Assembly: GCF_900113085.1 (NCBI RefSeq)
Contig: NZ_FOOC01000009.1
Span: forward strand, 62,001 to 126,000
Origin: Fontimonas thermophila
Lineage (GTDB): Bacteria > Pseudomonadota > Gammaproteobacteria > Nevskiales > Nevskiaceae
Direction of reading: 5' to 3'
Length of the DNA stretch: 64,000 nt
Shown here: positions 23,912-46,561 of the stretch, piece after piece
Layout of the letters: every line of letters begins with the position of its first letter
Position numbering within the stretch: position 1 is the stretch's first letter
Notes under the pieces: generated by a model
The model's database searches: none
The model's input: only the letters and a program-made list of their open reading frames with translations
Told to the model about the DNA's origin: nothing
Program-made: the position numbers and the translations under genes

Positions 23912-23923
23912 GCAGACGCTCCG

Positions 23924-26413: not shown

Positions 26414-26508
26414 TGGAGCTCTCCTTCTGCACATGCGCACTCGCATTTTTTGCCCGGCCTTCCGCCGGCCGGCATCCAGCCGGCCGGCGGAATCCCTCGC
26501 CCATATGC

Positions 26509-27873: not shown

Positions 27874-27920
27874 CGGTCTCCTCTCGTGGTGATCCCCAGG
27901 TGCATCGCGATCGAAAATTC

Positions 27921-30530: not shown

Positions 30531-30573
30531 GAATGCTCCCCGCGCTTGGTTTGGCTATGTGTGTGGGTGTTCT

Positions 30574-30595
30574 TGGGTTTTATATGGGTTTTATA
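30574..30595. repeat. Perfect tandem 11-bp repeat between alkB and the RND gene
   Basis: TGGGTTTTATA occurs twice head-to-tail (30574-30584 and 30585-30595). The second copy contains the alkB stop codon. On the coding strand this gives two TATAAA boxes one helical turn apart in an AT-rich patch. Together with the G/T-rich stretch 30555-30573 it makes an unusual 60-base gap, possibly a secondary promoter or regulator site. Confidence 0.7.
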
Positions 30596-32033: not shown

Positions 32034-32071
32034 CAAACCGTCTCCTCTCGGTGCCGCTGACAAACCCCATG

Positions 32072-32095
32072 CTGTCCGACAGACACCCGACGGAC
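32072..32095. promoter_or_regulatory. Palindrome and 11-bp-phased repeats between alkB and the AraC gene
   Basis: CTGTCCGACAG (32072-32082) is an interrupted palindrome. CCGACAGAC (32076-32084) and CCGACGGAC (32087-32095) are direct repeats one helical turn apart with one mismatch. More CTGTC copies follow at 32096 and 32117. A CATAAT box at 32121-32126 faces the AraC gene. This is the expected form of an AraC-family operator in a 98-base divergent gap. Confidence 0.45.
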
Positions 32096-32131
32096 CTGTC
32101 GATTTCGGACAATGAACTGTCATAATGCGAC

Positions 32132-33187
32132 ATGCTCCGCAGCACCAGCAGCAGCCGACTTCTGGTTCCGGCCCGGTACTACATGCGCCTGGCCGACATC
32201 CTCCCCCGCCACGGAATCGATCTGCACGCCGTGCTGCGCGCGCTGGACCTGCCGGAGGATGCGCTCCAGCAGGCCGACGCGCGCATCGCCCTTGCCGACG
32301 TCGAGCGGCTGATCGCCACCATCGTCGGTGCCGGCGCGCCGTCCGAAACCGGCTTCGAGCTGGGCCGCTTGCTCTCGGTCAGCACCCATAGTGTCGTCGG
32401 CTTCGGCATGCTCAGCAGCCCGACGATGGATGATGCGCTGCGCTTCGTCGCGCGCTACTTCAGCCTGGTGATGCCAAGCTTCCGCCTGCGCTATCGCAGT
32501 GACCGCGACGGCGGCACGTTGCTGTTCACGCCCGTGGTGGCGATGAGTCGCGTCTGCCTGTACTTTCATCTGGAGACGATCGCAACCGCCGCGCTGCGCG
32601 ATCTGGACGATTTGACCGGTGGCCGCCGGCCGCGCTGCCGGTTGACCCTGTCGATGCCCGCGCCGCCGCACGTGCGCCGCTATGAAGCCTTGCACGATGT
32701 CGAATGCCGCTTCGGCGCCGAGTCCAGCACCGGCCCCTTCATCCAACTGGACATCTTCGAAGATCTGCGCACGATTCCGCTGCGCCTGTCGGACCCCAAT
32801 GCCCTGCGCGTGGCCGAGGCGCGTTGCCGCGCGCTGATCGACCAGGTCACCGGCATCGAGCGTTTTTCCGAGTGGATCGCGATGACGATCCGCGAAATGG
32901 GCGACGACGTGCCGACGCTGCAAGAGCTGTCGCGGATACTCAATCTGACGACGCGCACGCTCAACCGCTATCTCGAACGCGAGGGCACCTGCTATCGCGA
33001 GCTGGTCGGCAACATCCGCTTCGAACTCGCCTGCGAACGTCTGACGACGAGCATGATGAGCGTGACCGAGATCGCCTACTCGCTCGGCTTTCACGACTCC
33101 GCGAACTTTGCGCGCGCGTTCCGTGCGAGAGCCGGCTGCACGCCGAGTGAGTACCGGCGCCGGTTCGGTATGCGCCGGCCTGCCTGA
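32132..33187 (+). CDS. AraC-family transcriptional regulator (alkB side)
   Basis: A 351-residue regulator with an N-terminal OruR/ArgR-like sensing domain (about residues 15-220) and two C-terminal helix-turn-helix motifs (about 250-345), including [21 protein letters not shown]. It is divergent from alkB and probably activates it. A CATAAT box 6 bases upstream of the ATG means either a near-leaderless mRNA or a later start at 32183. Homologs usually have a few residues before the R-Y-Y-M segment, so 32132 is kept. Its stop abuts the stop of the convergent dehydrogenase gene. Confidence 0.86.
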
Positions 33188-33200
33188 TCAGCCGGCCGGC
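33174..33200. terminator. Hairpin over the abutting stops of AraC and dehydrogenase genes
   Basis: GCCGGCC (33174-33180) pairs with GGCCGGC (33194-33200) around a 13-base loop holding both stop codons (TGATCA). It may end both converging transcripts, but it has no T run. Confidence 0.4.
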
Positions 33201-35515
33201 CGCGGCTCGCGCGGCATGCCCAGGCCGCGCTCGGCGATGATGTTGAGCTGGATTTCGTTGGTGCCGGCGTAAATCGTGTCGGCACGCGAGAAGAAGAACA
33301 ACTGCTGCAGCGGCCGGATCGCCGGGTCGTCGGAACGCACGTCGCCATCAGCACCGAGCACATCCATCGCGAGCTTGCCGAGGTCGCGGTGCCAGTTCGA
33401 CCAGTAGTATTTGTAGATCAGCGCCTCGCGCTGCAAACCTTGTTCGCCACCGCCGGCGAGCATGCGCAGCGCGTTGGCGCGCATCACGCGCAAGCCGACC
33501 CAGGCCTGGGCGATGCGCGCGCGGATCGCAGGATCGCGGGCGCGTCCGTTACGCCGGGCGGCTGCGATGATCAGCTCGAGCTCGTGGGCAAACCGCATCT
33601 GCTGGCCGAGCGTGGACACGCCGCGCTCGGCTTCGAGCAACCCCATCGCCACCTTCCAGCCATCGCCAGGTGCGCCGACGATGTGATCCTTCTCGGCGCG
33701 CGCACCGTCGAAGAACACCTCGTTGAATTCGGCGCCGCCGCCGAGCTGGCGGATCGGCCGGATCTCGATTCCCGGCTGCTTGAGCGGCAACAGCAGAAAC
33801 GCCAGACCTTTGTGTCCCTTGGATCCCGGCTCACAGCGCGCGAGCACGAAGATCCAGTCGGCCTCGTGGGCGAGCGAGGTCCAGATCTTCTGCCCCTGCA
33901 CCCGCCATGAACCGTCGGCTTCCTGCCAGCAGCGCGTCTGCACGTTGGCGAGATCCGATCCCGCGCCGGGCTCGGAGTAGCCCTGCGCCCAGAATTCGCG
34001 GCCGGCGATGATCGGTGGCAGAAAGCGCTGTTTTTGTTCCGGCGTGCCGTAGCGGATCAGGGCCGGGCCGATCAAACCTTCGCCGATGTGCCCCATGCGA
34101 CCGGGGCCGCCGGCGCGCGCATATTCCTCGTGGAAGATGACCTGCTGGTCGATCGACAGCCCGCGGCCGCCGACTTCTTTCGGCCAGCCGATGCAGGTCC
34201 AGCCGCCGGCGGCAAGCTCTTGTTCCCAGGCCTTGCGCAGCGCCGGTTCGAAATCCTCGTCACCGGGCCCGCCGCGGTGCTTGAGCACCGCATAGGGTCC
34301 GCACAAGTGCGTGCGCATCCACTCCGCGACCTCGGCGCGGAAACGCGCGTTCTCGGGGTCGTCGGCGGTTGTCGCGATCACCGGCAGGCTGCCGGCATCG
34401 AGCAGCGCCGCGGCGAGCTCCGCGCGCAGTGCATCGGCGGTGCCAAAGACATGGCTCGTCGCCTGCGCGCGCTTGAAGTAGAGCTGCGGATCGTATTCCC
34501 AGGTGAAGCCGACACCGCCGTGCAACTGGATCGCCTCCTGCGCGCACCAGAAGAAGGTGTCGGCGGCGAGCAGGCGCGCGCCCGCGCACTCGGCGGCAAA
34601 CAGGGCGCCATCACCGGTGGCGGCCTGCGCGGCGGCGGCATACACCGCCGAACGCAGGGACTCGATCCTCACCATCATCTCCGCGCAGCGGTGCTTGACT
34701 GCCTGAAAAGCAGCAATCGGGCGGCCGAACTGCCGGCGCGTCGCGGTATAGGCCACAGTGAGATCCAGACACTGCTGGGCGCCGCCGAGCTGCTCGGCGG
34801 CGAGATACAGCCGCACCAGTGCACCGAACCGCGGCCAGCCCGAAGCGGTGCGCGCCGGATCGTCGATGCGCTCGGCGGCAACCCCGGCAAAGCAGGCAGC
34901 GGCAATCCGCCGGGTCTGATCCCAGGTGGGAAGTGGGGTGACCGACAGCCCTGCGGCCGTTCGCGGCACGGCAAAAACGCCTGTTCCTGCATCCGGCAAG
35001 GCGGCGAACAGCAAAAGCCAGTCCGCGCTCACGCCGTCGAGCAGTTGGCGCACCTCGCCATCGAGCACCCAGGTACCGGCGGCATGCCGTGCCGTCAGCG
35101 GATTCACCGCCGCACGCCAGGGCTCGGGATCCCCATACAGCGGCACGGCCAGCCGTAACGCACCCGCGGCAATGTGCGGCAAAAAGCGGGCTTGCGCGGC
35201 ATCGGTGCCGACGGTCTGAAGCAGCGTCGCACCGACACAGACCGTCGCAAAAAAAGGCGCACACAGCAGCCGCCGGCCGGCCTGCTCCTGGATCAGCACC
35301 AGTTCGACCGGACCAAGCCCGAGCCCGCCGTAGGTCTCGGGAATGGCAATTCCACACCAGCCCAGTTCGCGGCCGATGCGCCGCCAGACATCCTCGTCAT
35401 ACCCGGATGCGCTCGCCATTGCACGGCGGACGGCGGCGCTGTCGCTGACGTCGGCGAGAAACTGTTCCGATGTGTCGCGGATCAGGCGCTGGTCTTCGGT
35501 GAGCGTGAGCTGCAT
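33188..35515 (-). CDS. Fused two-domain acyl-CoA dehydrogenase (FadE30/FadE34-type context)
   Basis: A 775-residue chain holding two acyl-CoA dehydrogenase units. Residues 1-370 form the first, with Q-L-H-G-G-V-G-F-T-W-E-Y near its end. Residues about 385-770 form the second, with G-W-P-K-E-V-G-G-R-G, Y-S-E-P-G-A-G-S-D-L-A-N and an A-G-T-N-E-I-Q terminus. The second half resembles FadE30 of the steroid CD-ring pathway. Steroid dehydrogenases of this group work as alpha2-beta2 heterotetramers, so the fusion may join both subunits, as in FadE34. It is the last gene of the 13-gene set, 83 bases after the thioesterase gene. Confidence 0.9.
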   Translation of the reverse strand: MQLTLTEDQRLIRDTSEQFLADVSDSAAVRRAMASASGYDEDVWRRIGRELGWCGIAIPETYGGLGLGPVELVLIQEQAGRRLLCAPFFATVCVGATLLQTVGTDAAQARFLPHIAAGALRLAVPLYGDPEPWRAAVNPLTARHAAGTWVLDGEVRQLLDGVSADWLLLFAALPDAGTGVFAVPRTAAGLSVTPLPTWDQTRRIAAACFAGVAAERIDDPARTASGWPRFGALVRLYLAAEQLGGAQQCLDLTVAYTATRRQFGRPIAAFQAVKHRCAEMMVRIESLRSAVYAAAAQAATGDGALFAAECAGARLLAADTFFWCAQEAIQLHGGVGFTWEYDPQLYFKRAQATSHVFGTADALRAELAAALLDAGSLPVIATTADDPENARFRAEVAEWMRTHLCGPYAVLKHRGGPGDEDFEPALRKAWEQELAAGGWTCIGWPKEVGGRGLSIDQQVIFHEEYARAGGPGRMGHIGEGLIGPALIRYGTPEQKQRFLPPIIAGREFWAQGYSEPGAGSDLANVQTRCWQEADGSWRVQGQKIWTSLAHEADWIFVLARCEPGSKGHKGLAFLLLPLKQPGIEIRPIRQLGGGAEFNEVFFDGARAEKDHIVGAPGDGWKVAMGLLEAERGVSTLGQQMRFAHELELIIAAARRNGRARDPAIRARIAQAWVGLRVMRANALRMLAGGGEQGLQREALIYKYYWSNWHRDLGKLAMDVLGADGDVRSDDPAIRPLQQLFFFSRADTIYAGTNEIQLNIIAERGLGMPREPRPAG

Positions 35516-35598
35516 GACCGCATTATCGCGGTCACCTCAGAGGGTCTCATCATCCGTTGAGACGACGCCGGCGCGCAGCCTGTACACCACGAACGCGC

Positions 35599-36069
35599 TC
35601 ATGGCGCTGCGGCGAGATAGGGCCGAAGCCGCGCGATCTCATCCTCGTCGAGCGCAACGGCACGGCGCGTGTGCATGTCGATGCGCACGAGCACCGTGAC
35701 CGCGGTGGCGACGCAAGATCCGTTCGCGAACATGCCGAGTCCCAGGGTGAAGGCGCTGCGCCCGATGCGCAGCACACGAACGCCAATGCGCAACGCGTTC
35801 GGATAATGCAGCTCGCGCAGATAGTCGAGCTCGATACGCGCGACCACGTTCTGGCGCTGCGCATCGCGCTGCCACAGGCCGGTGGCCTGCAGGAACGCGA
35901 CGCGACCGCTCTCGGCATAGGTCATGAACGCCTTGTTGTTGACGTGGCCGAGCAGGTCGAGATCGGCAAAGCGCACGCGCTCTTCGGTCCAGAACCCGTA
36001 GGCCGTCATGCACCGTGCCGCATCCTCGGTGCGGCCACGCCAGCCTTCCGGCGTCGTCTCAGGTGCCAT
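35599..36069 (-). CDS. Acyl-CoA thioesterase, 4HBT hot-dog fold
   Basis: A 156-residue hot-dog thioesterase expected to release CoA from an acyl or ring-derived thioester. It has the helix signature R-F-A-D-L-D-L-L-G-H-V-N-N-K-A-F, whose second Asp is the likely catalytic residue, and Y-L-R-E-L-H-Y-P. The start at 36069 overlaps the SDR gene by 11 bases and has AGAAGG at good distance. An ATG at 36009 also begins the domain but lacks a ribosome site. Within this operon it may relieve CoA trapped in dead-end intermediates. Confidence 0.86.
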   Translation of the reverse strand: MAPETTPEGWRGRTEDAARCMTAYGFWTEERVRFADLDLLGHVNNKAFMTYAESGRVAFLQATGLWQRDAQRQNVVARIELDYLRELHYPNALRIGVRVLRIGRSAFTLGLGMFANGSCVATAVTVLVRIDMHTRRAVALDEDEIARLRPYLAAAP

Positions 36070-36940
36070 ACACCTTCTGCGGCACCGGCGCCTCGCGCAG
36101 CAGCTCGTCGATCACCGGCGTGAGCTCCGCCGGTGCCCAGCGTGCTTTCTTGTCGCGCATCGGGCCGGTGCGCCAGCCGGTGGCGATCGACACCTTGCCG
36201 CCCTCGACCTCGAAGACGTGCCCGGTCACGTGCGCGGACAGCGGGCTGCACAGCCAGACGACCAGCGGTGCGACGTTCTCCGGCGCGTAATGATCGAAGG
36301 CGTTGGGATCGTCCGGTTTTTTCATCAGCGCGCCGAACACCGGCTCGGTCATGCCGGTACGCGCCGCCGGCGCGAGGGCATTGGCGGTGATGCCATAGCG
36401 GCGCAACTCGGCGGCCTGCACCAGCGTCAACGCGGCGATGCCGGCCTTGGCCGCGGCGTAATTGCTCTGGCCGACCGAGCCCTGCAAACCCGCACCCGAG
36501 CTGGTGTTGATGATGCGCGCATCGACGCGCTGCCCGGCCTTGGCCTGGTCGCGCCAGCGCTGCACGAGGATGCGCGTGATGCAGAAATGCCCCTTGAGGT
36601 GCACCTTGATGACCTGATCCCAGTCCTCCTCGGTCATCGACACGAACATGCGGTCGCGCACGATGCCGGCGTTGTTGACGATTCCGTGTATGTCGCCGAA
36701 GGCGCGGATCCCGGCAGCGACGATGCGCTCGGCACCGTCCATGCTGGTGATGTCGTCGCCTGCGACGATGGCCTTGCCGCCGGCCTGGGTGATCTCGGCA
36801 ACGACGGCCTCGGCGGCGTCGCGACGGATATCGTTGACGACGACGCTCGCGCCCTCGGCGGCGAGCGCGTGCGCATAGGCGCGGCCGAGTCCGGCGCCGG
36901 CGCCGGTCACGATGATGCTGCGGTTCTCACAGATACCCAT
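36059..36940 (-). CDS. SDR-family dehydrogenase, 17-beta-HSD4-like
   Basis: A 293-residue NAD(P)-dependent oxidoreductase. The cofactor loop T-G-A-G-A-G-L-G lies near residues 13-20, N-N-A-G-I-V-R-D follows, and the catalytic set is S-S (I-I-N-T-S-S-G) with Y-A-A-A-K. The R-D-R-M-F and G-N/Q-S-N-Y style matches the hydroxyacyl-CoA dehydrogenase part of peroxisomal multifunctional enzymes. The ATG at 36940 has GGGAGAG upstream. It sits 26 bases after the FadA6-like thiolase, which suggests the hydroxyacyl-CoA oxidation step before thiolysis. Confidence 0.88.
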   Translation of the reverse strand: MGICENRSIIVTGAGAGLGRAYAHALAAEGASVVVNDIRRDAAEAVVAEITQAGGKAIVAGDDITSMDGAERIVAAGIRAFGDIHGIVNNAGIVRDRMFVSMTEEDWDQVIKVHLKGHFCITRILVQRWRDQAKAGQRVDARIINTSSGAGLQGSVGQSNYAAAKAGIAALTLVQAAELRRYGITANALAPAARTGMTEPVFGALMKKPDDPNAFDHYAPENVAPLVVWLCSPLSAHVTGHVFEVEGGKVSIATGWRTGPMRDKKARWAPAELTPVIDELLREAPVPQKVYGT

Positions 36941-36966
36941 TGCACTCTCCCTCGATGCGATTACGG

Positions 36967-38115
36967 CTAGAGCCGCTCGATGATGGTGACGTTGGCCACG
37001 CCGCCGCCTTCGCACATGGTCTGCAATCCGTATCGCTTGTGCGTGCGTTCGAGCTCATGCAGCAGCGTCGTCATCAGCTTGGCACCGGTCGCACCGAGCG
37101 GGTGGGCCAGCGCGATCGCACCGCCGTTGACGTTGGTTTTCTCGTGCGGATAGCCGGTTTCCTCGAGCCAGGCCATGACCACCGGCGCAAACGCTTCGTT
37201 GATCTCGACGAGATCGATGTCTTCGAGTTTCATGCCTGCTTTTTTCAGCGCCACCTTCGTCGCCGGGATCGGCGCGGTGAGCATGAAAATCGGGTCGTCG
37301 CCATAGACGCTCATATGATGGATGCGGGCGCGCGGCTTCAGGCCATAGCGCTTGAGCGCGCGCTCGCTGACGATCAGCAGGGCCGCGGCACCGTCGCCGG
37401 TTTGGCTGGACACCGCCGCGGTGATCGTACCGCCGGGGGCGAGCGGCTCGAGCGCCGCCATTTGTTCGAGCGAGGTGTCGCGCACGGTCTCGTCCATCTT
37501 CAGCCCCGCGGTTGCGATCAGCTCGCGGTCGAAGCGGCCTTCGTGCTGGGCACGCCGTGCGCGCAGATGCGATTCCAGTGCAAAGCGCTCCATCGCCGCG
37601 CGCGACAATCCCCACTTGTCGGCGATCAGTTGCGCGGCGTGGAACTGCGACACCGGCGCATCGCCGAAACGCGCACGCCAGCCCTCGGAGCCGGAGAATG
37701 GATCGTTGAAGCCCAGCGGCCTGGCCGCCGTCATCGCCGATCCGATCGGGATCTGCGACATGGTCTGCACGCCGCCGGCGACGACCACGTCCTGCGTGCC
37801 GCTCATGACCGCCTGCGCGGCGAAATGCACGGCCTGCTGCGAGGAGCCGCACTGGCGGTCGACGGTCACGCCGGGCACGTGCAGCGGCAGTCCGGCGGCG
37901 AGCCAGCAGGTGCGCGCGATATTGCCGGCGAGCGGCCCGATCGCATCGACGCAGCCGAAGATCACGTCATCGTAATCCTCGGCGGGAATCGGGTTGCGCG
38001 CCACCAGAGTCTTGAGCACGTGGGCGCCCAGATCGGCGGCGTGGAGATGGGCGAGACTGCCCCGGCGCTTGCCGGTGGGCGTGCGTAAGGCATCGACGAT
38101 GAATGCTTCGGCCAT
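36967..38115 (-). CDS. fadA6: Thiolase resembling FadA6 of steroid C/D-ring degradation
   Basis: A 382-residue thiolase. Cys89 in V-D-R-Q-C-G-S-S-Q-Q-A is the nucleophile, N-G-G-A-I-A-L-A-H-P-L-G carries the His, and the C-terminus is T-M-C-E-G-G-G-x-A-N-V-T-I-I-E-R-L. Segments A-G-N-I-A-R, G-G-V-Q-x-M-S-Q-I-P-I, D-P-I-F-M-L-T-x-P-I-P-A-T and V-E-I-N-E-A-F-A-P-V-V-M-A-W-L match FadA6 (Rv3556c) as I recall it. In that pathway it thiolyses the open-chain intermediate after IpdAB. It lies 50 bases downstream of the FadE32-like gene. Confidence 0.92.
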   Translation of the reverse strand: MAEAFIVDALRTPTGKRRGSLAHLHAADLGAHVLKTLVARNPIPAEDYDDVIFGCVDAIGPLAGNIARTCWLAAGLPLHVPGVTVDRQCGSSQQAVHFAAQAVMSGTQDVVVAGGVQTMSQIPIGSAMTAARPLGFNDPFSGSEGWRARFGDAPVSQFHAAQLIADKWGLSRAAMERFALESHLRARRAQHEGRFDRELIATAGLKMDETVRDTSLEQMAALEPLAPGGTITAAVSSQTGDGAAALLIVSERALKRYGLKPRARIHHMSVYGDDPIFMLTAPIPATKVALKKAGMKLEDIDLVEINEAFAPVVMAWLEETGYPHEKTNVNGGAIALAHPLGATGAKLMTTLLHELERTHKRYGLQTMCEGGGVANVTIIERL

Positions 38116-38165
38116 GAGAACCGTCCCGTGGATGGATAGGCGGTGGAAAAAGCGCGCAGGCCCGT

Positions 38166-39224
38166 TCAGGTGAAGGTTTCCCCGGGACCGAGCCGCGCGT
38201 TCGGATCGAACAGGAATGCAGCGATGCGCGCCTTGTGGAATTTGCGGTCACCCCAGGTTGCGTCGAGCGCCCAGGCGCGCTTCATGAACATCTGCAGATC
38301 GGCCTCCCAGGTGTACCCCATCGCGCCGTGTACCTGCAGGCTCTTGCGCGCCGCCAGCAGCGCCGCCTCGCCGGCAACGAGCCGCGCCTGCGAGACATAC
38401 AGCGAGGCGTGCGGATCGTCCTTGGCCAGCGCGTAGGCGGCGCGGTACACGACCGGCTCGGCGAACTCGATCTTCACCGCGACGTCGGCCATGTGATGCT
38501 TGACCGCCTGGAAGCTGCCGATCGGCTTGCCGAACTGCTTGCGCTGGGCGGCGTGATCCACGCCCAGATCGAGCATGCGCTGGGCAAGCCCGAGCAACTG
38601 GGCGCTGATCGCCACTCCGGCGCGGTCGAGCGCGCCGGCCCACAGCGCGCGGCCGATGCTGGCCTTGCATACGCGCGTTGCCTCCGACGGCGTCCACTCG
38701 ACCTTGTACAGCCGGCGCGACAGATCGATGCTCGGATTGAGCCGCGTCTTGACCTGGTCCTGGCGCAGCGCGTGGATCTCGTCGTCGTGCCAGAGCAGCA
38801 AGAGATCGGCATTGGCGGCGTCGGCGACGAACGGATTCACCGGATGGCCGACGGCGATGCGCGCCTTGCCCGAGGCGATCCGCGGCAGCCATTCGCGCTT
38901 GAGCGCGACGTCCGCCGGCAGATGGGTGAGCAGATAGACCGCGAGGTAGGCGGTGGCCGTCAGCGAGTCAGGAATCGCGAAATAACCCAGCTCCTGCTGC
39001 ACCAGTACCCAGTCCAGATCGCCGAGCCCGATGCCGCCGAAATCCTCGGGCACCGACAGCGCGGTCAAGCCCTGGTCGGCGAGCTTGGCGCGCAGCTCCG
39101 CGGAGCGGCCGCTTTGCGTCGTCTCCCAGATCTCGCGTAGCCACTCCGGCGCTGCCTCGACCATCAGGAATTTGCGCACCGCGTCGCGGAATGCGAGTTG
39201 CTGTTCTTCGAATGTGAAGTCCAT
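38166..39224 (-). CDS. Acyl-CoA dehydrogenase, FadE32/FadE33-like subunit
   Basis: A 352-residue acyl-CoA dehydrogenase-fold protein. It opens M-D-F-T-F-E-E-Q-Q and has Q-F-G-K-P-I-G-S-F-Q-A-V-K-H-H-M-A-D and H-G-A-M-G-Y-T-W-E-A-D toward the end. The middle region is short and poorly conserved, as in the partner subunits of steroid heterotetrameric dehydrogenases. It starts 12 bases after the FadE31-like gene, the order seen for FadE31-FadE32 in mycobacteria. If the upstream gene is truly frameshifted, this subunit may lack its partner. Confidence 0.87.
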   Translation of the reverse strand: MDFTFEEQQLAFRDAVRKFLMVEAAPEWLREIWETTQSGRSAELRAKLADQGLTALSVPEDFGGIGLGDLDWVLVQQELGYFAIPDSLTATAYLAVYLLTHLPADVALKREWLPRIASGKARIAVGHPVNPFVADAANADLLLLWHDDEIHALRQDQVKTRLNPSIDLSRRLYKVEWTPSEATRVCKASIGRALWAGALDRAGVAISAQLLGLAQRMLDLGVDHAAQRKQFGKPIGSFQAVKHHMADVAVKIEFAEPVVYRAAYALAKDDPHASLYVSQARLVAGEAALLAARKSLQVHGAMGYTWEADLQMFMKRAWALDATWGDRKFHKARIAAFLFDPNARLGPGETFT

Positions 39225-39236
39225 ATCGACCCCGAT

Positions 39237-40399
39237 CTACCTCGGCAGCCCGAGCATGCGCTCCGCGATGATGTTGCGCTGGATCTCGTTGGTGCCGGCG
39301 TAGATCGGCCCTGCTTGGGCGAACAGAAAGCCGTCGAGCCAGTGGCCGACGTCGCCGGCATCCGGCGCATGCGCCATCAGCTCGGCCCGCGCGCCCAGGA
39401 TCGCCATCGCGGTTTCGTGCATCAGCAAGTCGAGCTCGGACCAGAAGATCTTGTTGGTGGACGCCTCGGCGCCGATCTGACCGCCCTTGGCCAGGCGACA
39501 GGCGGTGCGGTAGGTGGCGAGCGCATAGGCTTCGGCGGCGACCCAGCTACGCATCACCGCATCGCGGATCGACGGGTCGGCATCGGCGGCCTCGCGGTGC
39601 CGGAGATAGAGCGCCACCAACTGCTTGGCGGTCTGCTGGAAGCGCGCCGGCGAGCGCAGCATCAGGCCGCGTTCGAAGCCGGCGGTGCCATGGCGATGGC
39701 CCAGCCGGCGCCCTCGTCGCCGACGCGATTGGCGACCGGCACCTCGACGTCGTCGAAGAAGATCTCGGCGAATCCGGTCAGGCCGTTGAGCTGCTTGATC
39801 GGCCGGATCGTGATCCCGGGTGCGTCGAGCGGCACGAGCAGAAACGTCAGACCGTGGTGGCGCTGCGACTCCGGATCGGAGCGGAACAGGCCGAACAGCC
39901 AGTCCGCCCAGACCGCGCGCGTGGACCAGATCTTCTGACCATTGATGACGTAACAGCCGTTGCGGCGGATCGCCTTGCAGCGGATCGCCGCCATGTCCGA
40001 CCCGGCGCCCGGCTCGGACCAGCCTTGCGCCCAGATGTCATCGGCCCTGGCCATGCGCGGCAGAAAGCGCGCCTTTTGTTCCGGCGTGCCGTACTCCATC
40101 AAGGTCGGCGCCAGCAGGAACACACCGTTTTGGTTGACACGCAGCGGCGCGCCCGCGGCCCAGTATTCCTCCTCGAAGATCAGCCACTCGATGAGATCAC
40201 AGCCGCGCCCACCCAGCTCTTTGGGCCAGGTGACCGCGGAAAACCCCTGCTCCGAGAGCTTGCGCTCCCAGGCGCGATGCTGCTCGAACCCTTCCTGGGT
40301 ATCGAAACTCGCCAGCGGCTCCTTGGGCACGTTGGCCGCAAGCCACTCCCGCACCTCGGCGCGAAACTGTTTTTGTCGTTCGGTGTATTCCAGACGCAT
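39237..40399 (-). pseudogene. FadE31-like acyl-CoA dehydrogenase, broken by a one-base frameshift
   Basis: The N-terminal 237 or so residues read in one frame from the ATG at 40399, through T-W-P-K-E-L-G-G-R-G, W-S-E-P-G-A-G-S-D and F-A-E-I-F-F-D-D-V-E-V, to G-W-A-I-A-M. That frame then turns to A-P-P-A-S-N-A-A and stops at 39662. The expected continuation T-A-G-F-E-R-G-L-M-L-R-S-P-A-R-F lies one frame over and runs to 39237, ending I-Y-A-G-T-N-E-I-Q-R-N-I-I-A-E-R. Adding one base near 39687 would restore a 387-residue FadE31-like enzyme. There is no slippery sequence. It is either a recent mutation or a sequence error. Confidence 0.88.
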
Positions 40400-40449
40400 G
40401 AGACTAAAGCTCCGAGAACATGCGACCACCGATCCTCGATACGAGAGAA

Positions 40450-41211
40450 TCAGAACTTGGCATCGCGTTTCTCGACGAAGGCGCGGCGGGCTTCCGCCGA
40501 GTCCCGTTCGGTGTAGGCCTGCAGCGTGAAGCCCTGCTCCCAGCGATACTTGTCCTCGAGGTTGCCGTCCTCGATGCCATTGAGCGATTCCTTGGCGAGC
40601 CGGATCATCGCCGGGCTTTTGGCGGCGATCTTGCGCGCGATATCGAGCGCGGCCTCGCGCAGCGCGCTGCGCGGCACGACGCGCTCGATCGCGCCCAGAC
40701 GGTAGGCTTCGGCGGCACTGATCGGCTCGCCGGTGAAATACATCATGCGCACCTTCTGCACCGGGAACAGGCGCTGCAGATGCGCCCCGCCGCCCATCGC
40801 GCCGCGATCGACCTCCGGCACGCCGAACGTCGCGTCCTCGGCGGCGACGACGATGTCCGCCGCGCCGGCGAGCCCGATGCCGCCGCCGAGCACAAAGCCG
40901 TGCACGGCGACGATCACCGGCAGCGGGTTGCGGTGCACGGCGCGGAACGAGCGGTAATTGCCGGCGTTGACCGACACGATTTTTTCCGGATGCCGGGCAA
41001 GCTCCTTGATATCGACGCCGGCACAAAAGCCGCGACCCTCGGCGCGGATCACGAGCACGCGGGCGGCCGGATCGGACCCGATGCGTTCGATCTCGTCGGC
41101 GAGCGCATGCCAGGCGGCATCGTCGAGCGCGTTGACCGGCGGGCGGTCGATCACCAGCTCGGCGATACCGTCGCTGATCGTGGTCGTCAGTCCGTGATTG
41201 CCGTGATTCAT
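40450..41211 (-). CDS. echA20: EchA20-like crotonase, steroid ring-opening hydrolase
   Basis: A 253-residue crotonase resembling EchA20 (Rv3550), reported to open ring D of the HIEC-CoA intermediate in steroid degradation. Shared segments include Y/R-P-P-V-N-A, R-A-E-G-R-G-F-x-A-G-V-D-I-K-E, V-x-G-G-G-I-G-L and F-G-V-P-E-V-D-R-G-A. Glu133 is kept while the first hydratase Glu is Gly, as in the named enzyme. The start overlaps the IpdC-like stop (ATGA). The gene order IpdC, EchA20, then FadE genes supports the assignment. Confidence 0.9.
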   Translation of the reverse strand: MNHGNHGLTTTISDGIAELVIDRPPVNALDDAAWHALADEIERIGSDPAARVLVIRAEGRGFCAGVDIKELARHPEKIVSVNAGNYRSFRAVHRNPLPVIVAVHGFVLGGGIGLAGAADIVVAAEDATFGVPEVDRGAMGGGAHLQRLFPVQKVRMMYFTGEPISAAEAYRLGAIERVVPRSALREAALDIARKIAAKSPAMIRLAKESLNGIEDGNLEDKYRWEQGFTLQAYTERDSAEARRAFVEKRDAKF

Positions 41212-42293
41212 ATCCTGTCGTCCTGCGCACAAAAAGCGGAAAGTGCCGAGAGCCGTGCCTCGGCCTGCCGCACGATGGTCTCGATCAGCTCGGCAACGCT
41301 CGGCAGCGTGTCGATCACCGCCGCGACCTGACCGCTCGGCAGCACGCCCTCGTCGGGCCGGCCCTCGACCATCGCGCGCTGGATCAGCATCGGGGCGTTG
41401 GCGGCCATCAGCGTCTGGATCGCGGTATCGCCCTCGCGCAGCGCGGCGAAGAAGGTGCGCACCATGTGCGCCAGCGACATCCCGGTGTGCGCGCGCCAGC
41501 GCCAGGCGCTGGCCAGCGCGACGCCCAGGCGGCGGAGAGTCCCGCCGCTTTCGAGCCGGCGCAGGACGGGGTTTTCGATCATGCGCTGCGGCAGGCCATC
41601 GACCGCGGTCGAGGTGCGGATGCGCGCCGGGTCTTTGACGTCGAGATAGTGCTGCAGGGTTGCACGCGGCACCGGCGATTCGGCGGTCATCAGAAAACGC
41701 GTGCCCATCGCGATGCCGACGGCGCCATATGCGAGCGCGGCGGCGAGCCCGCGGCCATCGAAAAACCCGCCGGCGGCGACGACCGGCACGGAAACGGCAT
41801 CGAGCACCTGCGGCAGCAGCAGTGTGGTCGGCACCGCGCCGGTGTGTCCGCCGCCTTCGGCGCCCTGCACGGTGATCAGATCGGCGCCGAGCTCGACCGC
41901 CTTGACCGCATGCTTGAGCGCCCCGACCGTGGGCATGCATACGATGCCGGCATCCTTGAGCCGCCGGATCGTCTTGGCATCCGGGCCACGGCCGTAGGAG
42001 ACGGCGCGCACACGGTCCTTGTGTTCGATGCACAGCGCGATGACGTCCTGTGCGTTCGGCTGGAACATGTGGAAGTTCACACCGAAGTTGGCCGGCGTGG
42101 CCGCGCGCACCTCGGCGATCGCGCGCGCGAGCGCCTCGGTGGACATCGTCGCCGCGGCGAGAAAACCAAAACCGCCGGCATTGCCGGTGGCCGCGACCAG
42201 GCGGGCATCGGCGACCCAGCCCATCGCCGTCTGCACGACCGGGTAACGGCAGCCGAGCCGGCGTGTCAGTTCAGTGGCCAGACCTGTGCTCAT
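41208..42293 (-). CDS. ipdC: IpdC-like FMN-dependent oxidoreductase (nitronate monooxygenase fold)
   Basis: A 361-residue TIM-barrel flavoprotein. Family motifs are P-V-V-Q-T-A-M-G-W at the N-terminus, Q-G-A-E-G-G-G-H-T-G (FMN/catalytic His region) and G-G-F-F-D-G-R-G-L-A-A-A-L-A-Y-G-A. Nitronate monooxygenase is the usual automatic name. Placed directly between the thiolase-like gene and EchA20, with IpdA and IpdB just upstream, it best fits IpdC (Rv3553) of the HIP-CoA pathway. Both its start and its stop overlap neighbouring genes by ATGA. Confidence 0.88.
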   Translation of the reverse strand: MSTGLATELTRRLGCRYPVVQTAMGWVADARLVAATGNAGGFGFLAAATMSTEALARAIAEVRAATPANFGVNFHMFQPNAQDVIALCIEHKDRVRAVSYGRGPDAKTIRRLKDAGIVCMPTVGALKHAVKAVELGADLITVQGAEGGGHTGAVPTTLLLPQVLDAVSVPVVAAGGFFDGRGLAAALAYGAVGIAMGTRFLMTAESPVPRATLQHYLDVKDPARIRTSTAVDGLPQRMIENPVLRRLESGGTLRRLGVALASAWRWRAHTGMSLAHMVRTFFAALREGDTAIQTLMAANAPMLIQRAMVEGRPDEGVLPSGQVAAVIDTLPSVAELIETIVRQAEARLSALSAFCAQDDRI

Positions 42294-43474
42294 GGCCGCA
42301 CGACGATCACCGAGGAGCCATGACCGAACAGCCCCTGGTTGGCGGTGATGCCGACCCGGGCGTTTTCCACCTGGCGCGCGCCGGCCTGCCCGCGCAACTG
42401 CCAGGCCAGCTCGCAGACCTGCGCCAGCGCCTGTGCCGGCACCGCCTCGCCGAAGCAGGCCAGCCCACCGGACGGATTGACCGGGATGCGCCCCCCCAGC
42501 GCGGTCTCACCACGGCGCAGCAGGGCCGCGGCCTCGCCGCGCGCGCACAGCTGCAAATCCTCGATCCAGTCCAGTTCCATCGCGGTCGACAGGTCATACA
42601 CCTCGGCGACATCGACGTCCTTGGGATCGACCCCGGCTTCCTCATAGGCTTTCCGCGGCAACGCAGCGCGAAACGACTGCGCCGGTGCAGCGACGGCGGA
42701 ATCGGTGGCGATGTCCGGCATCTCCACCAGCGCAGAAGCGAACGTCGGCGTGACCGTGGAAATCGCGCGGATGCGCGGCGCATCCGCTTTTCCGATTCGC
42801 TTCGCATACGCCAGGCTGGAGACGACGACGGCCGCACCGCCGTCGGACGTCGCACAGATGTCCATCAGGCGCAGCGGATCGGCCACCATCGGCGATGCCG
42901 CCACCTCCGACAGCGTGAACCGCTTGCGGTAGCGTGCGTAGGGATTCTCGGCGCCGTGCTCGGCGTTCTTGACCTTGACCCGTGCGAAGTCCTCGAGCGT
43001 GTCGCCGTAGAGCGCCATGCGCCGGCGCGCATACAGCGCGAAATACGTCGGGTTGGTGATGCCCATGCGAAAGCGCACCCAGTCCGGATCGTCCGGGCGC
43101 TCGCCCGGAGCGGGCCTCAAGAATCCCTTGGGCGTGGTATCGGCGCCGACGACGAGCGCAAGCTCGCATTCGCCGGCGAGAATCTTCGCGCGTGCCGCGG
43201 CGAGCGCCTGCGCGCCCGAGGCACAGGCGGCATACGAGGTATTCACCTCGGCGCCCTGCCAGCCCAGGGCCTGCGCAAAAGTCGCGCCGGCCACCTGGCC
43301 GGGATAGCCGTTGCGGATCGTCGCGGCGCCGGAGACGAATTGCACCTCGCGCCATGTCACACCCGCGTCGGCAAGCGCATCGCGCGCGGCCTTGACGCCG
43401 TACTCGACGAAATTGCGCCCCCATTTACCCCAGGGGTGCATGCCGACACCGAGAATCGCAATCTCCTTGCTCAT
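42290..43474 (-). CDS. Thiolase-fold protein partnered with DUF35 (SCP2-thiolase/retro-aldolase type)
   Basis: A 394-residue thiolase-fold protein. Cys84 in A-A-C-A-S-G-A-Q is at the nucleophile position. The usual G-H-P loop reads G-G-L-A-C-F-G-E-A, so the catalytic His is replaced, and the C-terminal Cys loop reads N-Q-G-L-F-G-H-G. Proteins like this, paired with a DUF35 OB-fold, include steroid aldolases (Ltp2) and thiolases acting on bulky CoA esters. The stop overlaps the IpdC start and the start overlaps the DUF35 stop (both ATGA). The exact reaction is open. Confidence 0.82.
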   Translation of the reverse strand: MSKEIAILGVGMHPWGKWGRNFVEYGVKAARDALADAGVTWREVQFVSGAATIRNGYPGQVAGATFAQALGWQGAEVNTSYAACASGAQALAAARAKILAGECELALVVGADTTPKGFLRPAPGERPDDPDWVRFRMGITNPTYFALYARRRMALYGDTLEDFARVKVKNAEHGAENPYARYRKRFTLSEVAASPMVADPLRLMDICATSDGGAAVVVSSLAYAKRIGKADAPRIRAISTVTPTFASALVEMPDIATDSAVAAPAQSFRAALPRKAYEEAGVDPKDVDVAEVYDLSTAMELDWIEDLQLCARGEAAALLRRGETALGGRIPVNPSGGLACFGEAVPAQALAQVCELAWQLRGQAGARQVENARVGITANQGLFGHGSSVIVVRP

Positions 43475-43905
43475 GCAGCCGGCTTCCACTTCCAGATCAG
43501 CTTGCCGTCATCGAGCGGTTCGAGCACGAGTTCCATGCGCTGGCCGATGCAAAGCCGCGCCAGATCGACGCCGCGCGCCAGTTGCCCGAGCACGATCATG
43601 CACTCGCGCTCCAGCTCGACGGCGGCGATCCCGAACGGCTGGTAAGGCTCCTTGACGACATAGGGTTCGGGCGGCGGGTAGGCGGCATTGGTGTACGACC
43701 ACAGCGTCCCGGTGCGCGACAGCGCCACGTCCTCGAAGGTTTCGCCGGCGCAGTCCGGATTGCGGCAGAAAAGCTGCTGCCGGGGGAAGTAGTACGTGCC
43801 GCACGCCGTGCAGCGCGTACCCAGAAGCTGCGGGCGCACGGGATCGAGCGTGAACCAGCCGGGCAGGGCCGCAACCGCTGCGGACAGGGTGGAAGAATCG
43901 CTCAT
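43471..43905 (-). CDS. DUF35 zinc-ribbon/OB-fold acyl-CoA-binding protein
   Basis: A 144-residue protein with a rubredoxin-like zinc ribbon (Cys32, Cys35, Cys47, Cys52) followed by an OB-fold (about residues 60-140). DUF35 proteins form complexes with thiolase-fold enzymes and bind acyl-CoA. Coupling to the next gene by ATGA overlap supports an obligate partner. It starts 66 bases after IpdB. Confidence 0.9.
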   Translation of the reverse strand: MSDSSTLSAAVAALPGWFTLDPVRPQLLGTRCTACGTYYFPRQQLFCRNPDCAGETFEDVALSRTGTLWSYTNAAYPPPEPYVVKEPYQPFGIAAVELERECMIVLGQLARGVDLARLCIGQRMELVLEPLDDGKLIWKWKPAA

Positions 43906-43971
43906 ACCAAACTCATGGCCTTACGTGCGCAGCAGCCGGCGGGCTCACCCAATGCGGGCGACGATGGCGGC

Positions 43972-44766
43972 TCATGCTCGGCGTCCCGGCGGGTTGCCCT
44001 TGATCTGCTGGCTGCGCAGGTTCTGCGGATCCAGCTGGCGGATGATCGCGAGCTGTTCTTCGGTCGGATGCGCGGTCTCGACCAGGTCCGCCGCCTTGAC
44101 GAGCGCAAATCCAGTCGCCGCCTGCACCGCGTCGAAGCTCACCCCGGGATGCAGGCTGATCACGCGGATGGCATGGTCGGGCCCGCCGAAATCCATCACG
44201 CACAAGTCGGTGACGATGCGGTGCAGGCGCATGAAATCCTGCCTGATGCCGGAACCCCAGCGCTCGCGCCGGTAACCGACCGAGCAGACCACATCCACCT
44301 CGCCAGAGACGAAGACACGCGGGCTGTGATGGGGCACGAAAAACGAGTTGGTGTGGTTGATGCTGTTGCCCGGAAAGCCACGCAGCCCGAGCAACTGACG
44401 CTTGGGCCTGGCGAAGTCACCGACGCAGGAGATGTTGGCCTGCCCCCAGCGATCGATCTGCACCGGACCGACGAGGGCGTGCCGCCGGCCGCTCCAGACG
44501 TTGTCGAACACACGCGCATACGGCATCCAGCCGGCATACACGCGGCCCTCATGGTTCTTTGCGCCGAGTGCGACCGGGTTCTCGGTGAGATAGGCCTCGC
44601 CGTCGGTGATCATCAGCTGCGGGCTGTGCGTGAGCTTGGCCAGCCCCTGCGCAAGGCGCGGAATCACGCCGATGCCGGTGGCGAGCACCTCGCCGTCGCC
44701 ACGCCAGACCTCGGCGCAGGCACAGATCAGCAATTCGGCGAGCGTGAAATCGGATGCGGTGGCCAT
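43972..44766 (-). CDS. ipdB: IpdB-like beta subunit of the steroid ring C CoA-ester hydrolase
   Basis: A 264-residue class I CoA-transferase-fold subunit resembling IpdB (Rv3552). Matching stretches include L-T-x-x-P-x-L-x-x-T-D-G-E-A, G-W-M-P-x-x-R-V-F, G-x-x-Q-x-D-R-x-G-x-x-N-I-S, G-x-x-G-N-x-I-N-H, V-x-D-F-G-G-P-D-H and V-S-L-H-P-G-V. IpdAB is reported to hydrolyse ring C of COCHEA-CoA during steroid catabolism. It begins one base after the IpdA stop, consistent with a heterodimer. It is often annotated as a glutaconate CoA-transferase subunit. Confidence 0.92.
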   Translation of the reverse strand: MATASDFTLAELLICACAEVWRGDGEVLATGIGVIPRLAQGLAKLTHSPQLMITDGEAYLTENPVALGAKNHEGRVYAGWMPYARVFDNVWSGRRHALVGPVQIDRWGQANISCVGDFARPKRQLLGLRGFPGNSINHTNSFFVPHHSPRVFVSGEVDVVCSVGYRRERWGSGIRQDFMRLHRIVTDLCVMDFGGPDHAIRVISLHPGVSFDAVQAATGFALVKAADLVETAHPTEEQLAIIRQLDPQNLRSQQIKGNPPGRRA

Positions 44767-44767
44767 G

Positions 44768-45670
44768 TCAGAACACCTGGCGCGGCAGCGCGCGGATCGC
44801 ATCGAGGCCGCCGACGGCGGCCTGGTAGGCCGCCTCGTCGCCATGCAGGAAGGTTCGCGCATACTGCGCAAAGCCATCGTCCGCCTCGGCCAGCGTGCAG
44901 TAGCGCGCAAGATGCGCACCATCCCAGCCATACCCGCAGCCGGCGCTGCGGACATCGACGTTGGACGTCGGATGGGCGCCGCCCGGCGCATGCACGACGC
45001 CGGTGATGCGATTGCGCTCGACGAGATGGAAGCGGGCGTCGATCTCATCGCCGGCGATGCGCTCGACGAGTTGCTCGCAGCTCACGTAGCAGCGTTCGGC
45101 GGCGCGCGCGAACAGCTCGTCGAAAAACGGATCGGGCGCATAGACGCGCACGTTGCCGATGGCATCCGCGCAATGCACGTGCAGCAGCGCGACATCGAGT
45201 TTGAGCGCCGGCATCGCCAGCAAGACCTCGCCATCCTCGTACGGCGAGGTCACGGTGCGCAGCCCCGGATACGCCTTGCCGATCTGGTCGGTGGCCAGGC
45301 CCACGCGCGTCGGCAAAAACGGCAGGCGCATGGCCGCGGCGCGCAGACCCCAGTGCAGCAGCCCCTCGTCGAGCTCGATCGCCTCGACGGCGCCGGATTC
45401 GCGCGCCTTGCGGAAGAACGGCTCCAGCGGAATGAAATCGAGCGAGACAAAGGCGTAGATCAGCTTTCTGACCTTGCCTGCGGCGCACAGCAGACCGACG
45501 TCGGGGCCGCCGTAGGCCACGACGGTCAGATCCCGAAGATCCGAGCGCAGGATCTCGCGCACGATCGCCATCGGCTTGCGTCGCGGCCCCCAGCCGCCGA
45601 TGCCCAGCGTCATGCCATCGCGCAGCGTTGCGACGACCTCGGATGCGGTCATCCGTTTGTCGAAACTCAT
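44768..45670 (-). CDS. ipdA: IpdA-like alpha subunit of the steroid ring C CoA-ester hydrolase
   Basis: A 300-residue partner subunit. D-K-R-M, G-W-G-x-R-R-K-P-M-A, L-T-V-V-x-Y-G-G-P-D-x-G-L-L-C, F-V-S-L-D and A-E-R-C/R-x-x-S-x-E match IpdA (Rv3551) as remembered. Glu102 in the L-D-E-G-L-L segment probably corresponds to the catalytic Glu reported for rhodococcal IpdA. The gene follows the dioxygenase gene with no gap (TAA-ATG). Confidence 0.92.
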   Translation of the reverse strand: MSFDKRMTASEVVATLRDGMTLGIGGWGPRRKPMAIVREILRSDLRDLTVVAYGGPDVGLLCAAGKVRKLIYAFVSLDFIPLEPFFRKARESGAVEAIELDEGLLHWGLRAAAMRLPFLPTRVGLATDQIGKAYPGLRTVTSPYEDGEVLLAMPALKLDVALLHVHCADAIGNVRVYAPDPFFDELFARAAERCYVSCEQLVERIAGDEIDARFHLVERNRITGVVHAPGGAHPTSNVDVRSAGCGYGWDGAHLARYCTLAEADDGFAQYARTFLHGDEAAYQAAVGGLDAIRALPRQVF

Positions 45671-46561
45671 TTACCGGAACCCCACCGAGAAATCATGCCC
45701 CCAGACCGACACCCGTTGGGTTTCGGTGGCCTTCCAGGTCTGCGGATCGACGCTGATGCCGCCCCAGCCGTACTCGAGCGCGAAGTTGCCCGGCGTCATC
45801 ATGTAGAACGAGGTCATGCGGTCGTTCTCGTGCTCGCCGAGCGTGGCCATCAGCTTGATGCCGTGCTTCTCGCGGCGCTCCAGCGCAAGCCCGACGTCGG
45901 TCATCGACAGCACCTCGACCATCACGTGCACGCACCCGCTCGGCGCCGGCATCTCGGCGAATGCGAGGCTGTGATGGCGGCCGCTCGATGCGTGCAGGAA
46001 ATGGATGCGGATCACCGGCGCATCGGGCGCGGGGCGGAAGTTGAACACGTCGGACAGACCGAAGCCGAGCACCTCGCGGAACAGCTTGACGGTGGCGTCA
46101 AAAGCACCGACGGCCGGCAGCACGGTATGCCCCATACCCTGGGCACCGGTCTTGAAGCCGCCGACACCGATCGGCGAGACGAAAGGCACACTGCCGCCGG
46201 TATAGCCGTGCACGAGCTCATGGCGGTTGCCGGAGGGATCGGTGAACACGGCCATGCGCTGCACGCAGCGCAGCGCGCGCTCGGCATCGCTGCCCTCGTG
46301 CACCGCGATGCCAGCCTGGCGCAGCGCAGCGACCGCCTCGGTAAACGCCTGTGCGCTCGTCGTCTCCCACCCGGAGGCAACATAGCGATCGGCCGCACCC
46401 GGCACGATGAGCATGCGGTGCACCCGCTCGTCGAGCTTGACGTAGAGCGCGCCGCCGTTCGCCGATGTCGTGGCCGCACCGAGCACCTGCTCGGCGTAGT
46501 GCCGCCACTGCGCGACGTCGGTGCTTTCCGCGACGATGTAGGCCAAGGCTTGGATTTTCAT
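45671..46561 (-). CDS. Type I extradiol dioxygenase, HsaC/TesB-like
   Basis: A 296-residue two-domain vicinal-oxygen-chelate enzyme cleaving a catechol meta to its hydroxyls. The iron ligands are His145, His212 and Glu263. His197, His244 and Tyr253 fit the second-sphere residues of BphC. With IpdA and IpdB next door, the likely substrate is the steroid A-ring catechol 3,4-DHSA, cleaved by HsaC (actinobacteria) or TesB (Comamonas). The ATG at 46561 follows AGGAG. An in-frame ATG at 46597 lies so close to a -10-like box that it is less likely. It is the first gene of the steroid operon. Confidence 0.9.
   Translation of the reverse strand: MKIQALAYIVAESTDVAQWRHYAEQVLGAATTSANGGALYVKLDERVHRMLIVPGAADRYVASGWETTSAQAFTEAVAALRQAGIAVHEGSDAERALRCVQRMAVFTDPSGNRHELVHGYTGGSVPFVSPIGVGGFKTGAQGMGHTVLPAVGAFDATVKLFREVLGFGLSDVFNFRPAPDAPVIRIHFLHASSGRHHSLAFAEMPAPSGCVHVMVEVLSMTDVGLALERREKHGIKLMATLGEHENDRMTSFYMMTPGNFALEYGWGGISVDPQTWKATETQRVSVWGHDFSVGFR

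Follow-up and report, generated by a model that had tools for sequence, protein, structure and literature searches.

In Comamonas testosteroni, the genes for degradation of steroid rings C and D form the scd cluster (PMC8399759; PMC13101464), and the locus tags of strain CNB-2 give the order TesB, ScdL1, ScdL2, ScdN, ScdK, ScdY, FadE31, FadE32, ScdF (PMC8399759). In Mycobacterium and Rhodococcus, counterparts of many of these genes belong to the KstR2 regulon (Rv3548c-Rv3564). Here, we analyze 13 consecutive minus-strand genes of Fontimonas thermophila, running from 46561 to 33188 in a 64,000-nucleotide stretch of contig NZ_FOOC01000009.1 (the whole stretch is referred to as the window), which an earlier sequence-only reading had assigned to steroid C/D-ring catabolism. 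The run lies where that reading placed it, and the gene-by-gene family and PDB matches, together with the Comamonas gene order, agree with a HIP (steroid C/D-ring) operon. We put at about 0.9 the probability that the run, taken whole, serves as the HIP operon in a steroid degrader of the Solimonas group.

The operon has the same genes in the same order as the Comamonas cluster (tesB-scdL1L2-(slot)-scdK-scdY-scdM1M2-scdF); it differs in carrying a DUF35 gene and an Ltp gene instead of scdN and in the fusion of the scdC pair, and scdG, scdD, and scdJ were not recognized in it. With the KstR2 regulon it shares counterparts of ipdA, ipdB, ipdC, echA20, fadA6, and fadE30/31/32/33, whereas KstR2, FadD3, and IpdF are missing from the operon, the order differs, and FadE33 and FadE30 are fused. 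The label “KstR2-type” used in the sequence-only reading therefore fits the gene content but does not extend to the regulator: no TetR (KstR2) gene occurs in the 13-gene operon, and no search aimed at one was made elsewhere in the genome. The closest regulator, an AraC gene (32132-33187), is transcribed divergently from alkB. Bile-acid-degrading Proteobacteria are reported to lack KstR1 and KstR2 homologues (PMC8399759).

Within its genus, which is that of Solimonas soli and Sinimarinibacterium, the operon is ordinary. The same operon is present in Solimonas soli, Sinimarinibacterium, Solimonas marina, S. variicoloris, and Nevskia-type metagenome-assembled genomes (MAGs), and IpdC, EchA20, FadE32, and FadA6 are 63-89% identical between Fontimonas and Solimonas soli, Sinimarinibacterium, and other Nevskiales. 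In many Nevskiales, KstD2-SDR3-FadD-SDR4 divergently adjoin the operon, whereas in Fontimonas these genes are on contig 16. We found ipdA in all 11 genomes of the genus, in 43 of 85 genomes of the order, and in 5 of 369 genomes of a sample of the class (the window's own included). Since steroid degradation has already been described in Gammaproteobacteria (PMC4810484), the operon itself is of a known kind.

Results

ScdN and DUF35-Ltp may be interchangeable between ipdB and ipdC

The slot between ipdB and ipdC is filled by the crotonase ScdN in Comamonas and by two genes, left unnamed in the sequence-only reading, in Fontimonas thermophila. The first (43471-43905, minus strand) encodes a ChsH2-type DUF35 protein, the partner of the Ltp gene, in which zf-ChsH2 and OB_ChsH2_C (PF12172 and PF01796) both score above their gathering thresholds. 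The second (42290-43474, minus strand) encodes Ltp, a protein of the SCP2-thiolase fold and the PRK06059 family (NF004715, 698 bits, cut-off 424) with altered catalytic motifs. No ScdN match was found in the Fontimonas thermophila genome.

To compare the two across the order, we searched 85 genomes with ScdN (query L032, E<=1e-60) and with Ltp (query from the window, E<=1e-120). Among the 43 genomes with ipdA, 15 have Ltp only (the window's genome included), 16 have ScdN only, 12 have both, and none has neither (Fisher p 0.00015, uncorrected for kinship). Kinship was addressed by simulation, in which two-state models were fitted separately for each gene and evolved independently on an operon tree of 40 ipdA-bearing rows. 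The simulations led to an expectation of 4.9 rows with neither gene, and a count of zero arose in 0.47% of 20,000 draws (P 0.0047) and in 10 of 3179 when only draws of similar frequency were kept. On the same tree, at least 7 changes are needed for ScdN and 8 for Ltp.

The two also share a position. Of the order loci, 27/27 with Ltp carry it between ipdB and ipdC; for ScdN the figure is 27/28, the remaining locus being cut by a contig end. Among the 42 order genomes that lack ipdA, ScdN is absent and Ltp occurs in 2, in both cases on a contig that ends inside the operon. DUF35 accompanies Ltp throughout: over 56 loci, it is present in 29/29 with Ltp (the 27 of the order plus L071 and L084) and in 0/27 of the others.

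Outside the order, 20 hand-picked genomes comprise 15 with ScdN and 5 with Ltp, the genome of L074 being counted in both (its ScdN match reaches only 47% identity), and 1 with neither. The genes are not always in the slot there: it is empty in L038 and L043, which have Ltp elsewhere in the genome, and in L054, L059, and L081 ScdN lies elsewhere. In a plasmid collection, whose records may hold less than a whole genome, 29 of 32 records with IpdA also have ScdN. The three without it belong to Tsukamurella, one of two Sphingobium herbicidovorans replicons, and Nonomuraea gerenzanensis, the last a record of 11.85 Mb with a partial IpdA and an Ltp match at 68%; the only other Ltp-like match in the collection is from Sphingopyxis (41%).

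Taken together, these results tilt us, a little beyond even odds, toward ScdN and DUF35-Ltp being interchangeable at this slot. No report of such an exchange was found in the titles and abstract openings of open-licence PubMed Central papers.

A different explanation is that ScdN and DUF35-Ltp are unrelated accessories reflecting the steroid diet, ScdN serving bile-acid-derived HIP and Ltp serving branched sterol side chains, so that the missing “neither” class is chance. The 12 genomes with both enzymes are in line with this explanation. The mycobacterial Ltp3 is presumably Rv3523. Ltp3 and Ltp4 are reported to be aldol-lyases for C24-branched side chains (PMC8708139, PMC6678751), and EchA13, for which cholate-derived 7-hydroxy-HIP has been proposed as the substrate (PMC5380842), is RHA1_RS22405, the entry in the ScdN row of a review table (PMC8399759). 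However, zero of 43 genomes with neither gene is unlikely if the two are independent (P 0.003-0.005, computed on 40 of the 43), the ScdN of strain TA441 is described as a hydratase after C-ring cleavage, and the ipdB-ipdC slot is where Ltp is found in 27/27 order loci and on the two cut contigs. We consider the dietary explanation a serious possibility, though not the probable one.

Ltp and ScdN both lack standard catalytic residues

We compared Ltp with the SCP2 thiolase and the benzoylsuccinyl-CoA thiolase BbsB and found that the Cys is kept (YAACASG), whereas the His of HDxF is replaced by Tyr and that of GHP by Glu. The altered motifs are invariant in 29/29 rows, and Ltp does not have the full set of canonical SCP2/BbsB thiolase residues. 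Because both His motifs are lost, we hold it less likely that Ltp is a plain thiolase for 2-methyl-3-oxoadipyl-CoA.

In ScdN (L032), Met and Val stand where PDB entry 4k29 has two Glu, at positions that we take, after rat crotonase, to be those of the catalytic Glu of crotonases. The Met (GGLMLAW) is invariant in 37 rows and the Val is conserved in at least 90%, and ScdN thus lacks the two Glu expected of an enoyl-CoA hydratase. AlphaFold models, each built from an alignment of 10 rows, were not of usable quality (mean pLDDT, the model's per-residue confidence score, 36.6 for Ltp and 58.7 for ScdN).

DUF35 partners are known for the Ltp2 and Sal aldolases (PMC12502768, PMC11321319). The side-chain aldolases Ltp2-ChsH2(DUF35) and Sal-Shy(DUF35) resemble Ltp in combining a thiolase fold, a DUF35 partner, and the loss of canonical thiolase residues. 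Unlike them, the Fontimonas Ltp keeps the Cys, lies in a ring operon, and has no hydratase domain attached; it scores 100.8 bits to Ltp2 (6ok1) versus 171.7 to the SCP2 thiolase. In TA441, ScdN has been assigned the hydratase step that follows C-ring cleavage (PMC13101464, PMC6678751), and the fate of delta2-MOODA-CoA was called unclear by Crowe et al. 2017 (PMC5380842).

We infer that the substrates of ScdN and Ltp alike are ring-opened CoA esters close to delta2-MOODA-CoA. A broader proposal, which we advance tentatively and rate somewhat below even odds, is that Proteobacteria, at the last stage of steroid ring catabolism, use either ScdN or DUF35-Ltp as mutual replacements and that both, which lack the standard residues of their folds, may cleave a C-C bond of ring-opened MOODA-CoA intermediates, in which case ScdN would be something other than a simple hydratase. 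That Ltp specifically carries out retro-aldol C-C cleavage of hydrated delta2-MOODA-CoA is a guess, and rather an unlikely one.

IpdA and IpdB match a hydrolase and seem to have been replaced in place

IpdA (ScdL1; 44768-45670, minus strand) and IpdB (ScdL2; 43972-44766, minus strand) are assigned as the alpha and beta subunits of COCHEA-CoA hydrolase. The best matches of IpdA are 6con (266 bits) and 6co6 (262 bits) versus 80.8 bits for the best glutaconate CoA-transferase chain; for IpdB, 6co6_B and 6con_B score 220.2 and 206.7 bits versus 44.2 for the best glutaconate-type chain. Both structures were deposited as CoA-transferase subunits, and we take them to be IpdAB of M. tuberculosis and Rhodococcus. 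IpdA is also the sole CoA_trans match in the genome (E<=0.001).

The Glu that serves catalysis in type I transferases is absent from IpdAB, with Gly57 in its place in RHA1 (Crowe et al. 2017, PMC5380842). In an alignment, the ITDGEA motif of the Fontimonas IpdB puts Gly at this position, and across 56 IpdB rows placed by the motif, the residue is Gly in 21, Ser in 33, Ala in 2, and Glu in none. A rival identity for the pair is a CoA-transferase of the ordinary kind (acetate, glutaconate, or 3-oxoadipate) in an aromatic-acid operon. Such an identity is suggested by the best NCBIfam matches of IpdA, which score far below their cut-offs (51 bits to acetate CoA-transferase alpha and 49 bits to 3-oxoacid CoA-transferase A); it is contradicted by the 266/220 bits to the solved IpdAB pair, by the replacement of the Glu with Gly, Ser, or Ala in 56/56 rows, and by the neighbors EchA20, IpdC, FadE, and HsaC. 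Because of the matches to solved structures and the loss of the Glu, we consider this identity refuted and its remaining probability very small. The naming of IpdA and IpdB in the sequence-only reading is thus upheld (266/220 bits versus 81/44 at best), and the pair did not group with the glutaconate or 3-oxoacid transferases, as judged by scores rather than by a tree that includes them.

The history of the pair departs from that of its operon. The window's IpdA is 69-77% identical to that of 7 of the 10 other genus members and 58-60% identical to that of the other 3, a two-way split not seen for the other operon genes. In the IpdAB tree, the window falls in a clade of 17 rows, whereas its close kin by operon, S. 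variicoloris among them, fall in a group of 27; mapped on the operon tree, the IpdAB type (set by identity over 64.5%) needs at least 7 changes. Forcing nine close relatives by operon to group in the IpdAB tree lowers the log-likelihood by 582 units; the group for this approximately unbiased (AU) test was picked after inspection of the operon tree, and its p value is only indicative. Trees and test were quick IQ-TREE runs without a mixture model. The simplest reading of these trees seems to be that the ipdAB pair was replaced in place, repeatedly, within syntenic operons.

Remaining genes and layout of the operon

Gene names rest on family (NCBIfam and Pfam) and PDB searches, and assignments were made by homology and order. 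Upstream of ipdA is a gene for an HsaC/TesB-type extradiol dioxygenase, predicted to carry out meta-cleavage of aromatized ring A (45671-46561, minus strand, as are all genes of this section). It scores 284 bits to NCBIfam HsaC (cut-off 450) and 270 to the BphC family, and 226.6 bits to PDB 2zi8, presumably HsaC, versus 177.3 to BphC 1han; in nearly all loci of the order this gene lies directly upstream of ipdA. Downstream of ltp follow IpdC (ScdK; 41208-42293), a FabK-like flavoenzyme (FabK family 219.6 bits, below the cut-off of 453; IpdC has been reported to be similar to FabK) that is 73-82% identical across 41 order loci, and EchA20 (ScdY; 40450-41211), the ring-D hydrolase (PRK07938, 386 bits, cut-off 260; 76-89% across 40 loci). 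FadE32 (ScdM2; 38166-39224), a MOODA-CoA dehydrogenase subunit, reaches 153 bits to the IpdE2 family (cut-off 450) and is identified by its conserved position and 63-85% identity in 39 loci, and the thiolase FadA6 (ScdF; 36967-38115) reaches 692 bits to PRK07801 (cut-off 591; 74-89% across 39 loci). The short-chain dehydrogenase/reductase (SDR; 36059-36940; PRK07791, 443 bits, cut-off 373) is probably a 3-hydroxyacyl-CoA dehydrogenase of the ScdE/Rv3548c type, as suggested by the Comamonas gene order, and is followed by a 4HBT-fold acyl-CoA thioesterase (35599-36069; PF13279, 75 bits).

The genes ipdA, ipdB, ipdC, echA20, fadE31, fadE32, and fadA6 are contiguous, with fadE31 frameshifted. The “many” ATGA couplings reported for the run come down to three four-base overlaps (DUF35/Ltp, Ltp/IpdC, and IpdC/EchA20); IpdA and IpdB are spaced by 1 base, and with the SDR start at an ATG at 36940, FadA6 and SDR have no genuine overlap. 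Third-position GC is 81-90% in 13 in-frame slices of the 14 open reading frames (ORFs), the IpdB slice being excluded.

The last gene (33188-35515) encodes a chain of 775 residues that had been described as a FadE30/34-like fusion. It is instead an IpdE2-IpdE1 (FadE33-FadE30, ScdC-type) acyl-CoA dehydrogenase and not FadE34-like. The N-terminal half matches the IpdE2 family (NCBIfam, 180.8 bits, cut-off 450) and 6wy8_A, Tcur3481 (106.2 bits), and the best PDB chain for the C-terminal half is 6wy9_A, Tcur3483 (192.9 bits). In line with the NCBIfam match, we take Tcur3481 and Tcur3483 to be IpdE2 and IpdE1. Both subunit types of the IpdE1-IpdE2 heterotetramer are therefore recognizable, but in one chain and in the order IpdE2-IpdE1. 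Among 111 loci searched, 36 have both halves at >=45% identity, and in 34 of these they are not one open frame; the exceptions are the window and a second fusion at 17269-19620 of L132, from genome G374 of the same taxonomic family.

FadE31 is frameshifted

FadE31 (ScdM1; 39237-40399, minus strand) is present, as the sequence-only reading had it, but loses its frame near 39687 through a one-base deletion, which leaves two ORFs (39662-40399 and 39237-39662). In a DNA alignment, 10/10 relatives, all Nevskiales, are intact. The deletion sits outside any long homopolymer, and no second copy was found, there being no other match above 41% identity in the genome.

These observations would also suit a relic operon, in which the frameshift is real and a small genome is losing steroid degradation. 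The genome (2,733,540 bases in 28 contigs, 99.6% complete) is 2.73 Mb versus 3.2-4.7 Mb, mostly 4-4.7, in 10 other genus members. Against decay, the frames of the remaining 12 genes are open and their relatives are clear. Conservation is equal in the two pieces of FadE31 (81% and 85% identity to a single intact protein), which would make the loss either very recent or an assembly error. We regard a relic as unlikely. A fadE32 mutant of M. smegmatis merely grows more slowly on HIP (PMC5380842).

Other steroid genes in the genome and around the operon

The sequence-only reading had noted that HsaA, HsaB, HsaD, KstD, KshAB, and FadD3 lie outside the window. We sought steroid ring-opening genes in the rest of the genome and found candidates for HsaA, HsaB, HsaD, KstD, KshA, and FadD3 on contigs 16 and 19. 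Contig 16 carries a FadD3-family ligase that scores above its cut-off (744 bits versus 657) and two proteins that score below theirs, an HsaA-like oxygenase (378 bits versus 450) and a KstD-like protein (604 bits versus 788). The KshA candidate, a Rieske oxygenase, is also on this contig, as are SDRs and a second FAD-binding protein. Contig 19 carries HsaD-like (174 bits, cut-off 400), HsaE-like (hydratase TIGR03220, 389 bits, cut-off 409), HsaG-like (named by eye), and HsaF-like (aldolase TIGR03217, 557 bits, above the cut-off) genes at 311858-315511. A flavin reductase at 323804 is the HsaB candidate (145 bits, cut-off 230); its best family is another reductase (221 bits). Contig 16 also holds, at 25600-36390, a CRISPR-Cas-like operon named by eye (helicase, Cas4/Cas1-like fusion, and Cas2-like genes).

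In the window, a DUF1329 gene (46720-48096, minus strand; PF07044, 361.6 bits) lies directly upstream of the operon. It is the second such gene: another belongs to a consecutive minus-strand series at 22904-30530 (YCF48-like, DUF1302, DUF1329, and MMPL-type RND genes), possibly a lipid or steroid transport set. Between this series and the operon (30591-33187), a 510-residue fusion of a fatty-acid-desaturase/AlkB-type hydroxylase with a rubredoxin is divergent from the AraC-family regulator, with a gap of 8 bases.

Discussion

Combining pathway steps from the literature with our assignments suggests the following route. HIP would be activated by the FadD3-family ligase of contig 16, and its propionyl chain would be shortened by the fused IpdE2-IpdE1 dehydrogenase, the SDR, and thiolase enzymes. 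IpdC would then desaturate ring C, EchA20 would hydrolyze ring D, IpdAB would hydrolyze ring C, FadA6 would remove acetyl-CoA to give MOODA-CoA, and FadE31/32 would desaturate the latter. At the next stage, that of ScdN in Comamonas, the DUF35-Ltp pair may do the job that makes ScdN dispensable, with retro-aldol C-C cleavage as the likeliest form of it.

Several observations weigh against this picture. The candidates for HsaC, HsaA, HsaB, HsaD, and HsaE all fall below their NCBIfam cut-offs, and the KshA candidate is named from its Rieske domain and neighborhood, having no NCBIfam match at 1e-30. With FadE31 frameshifted, the operon as sequenced would be without one presumed MOODA-CoA dehydrogenase subunit. 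As for the exchange, 12 genomes carry both ScdN and Ltp, and an independent-pairs test had 5 usable pairs on supported branches, too few for significance. One genome outside the order, that of L108 (an Erythrobacter MAG), has neither gene; at 3053-3271 of this locus a short ORF joins the start of ipdB to the end of scdN, through a deletion or a misassembly. Finally, an aldolase itself cannot stand in for a hydratase, which leaves the chemistry of the exchange unexplained.

If two unrelated enzymes do swap at this step, the step is directly testable by exchanging them, and many genes now annotated as “enoyl-CoA hydratase” or “lipid-transfer protein” would gain a function. Likewise, repeated exchange of ipdAB in otherwise stable operons would represent clean in-place replacement of a key ring-opening enzyme.

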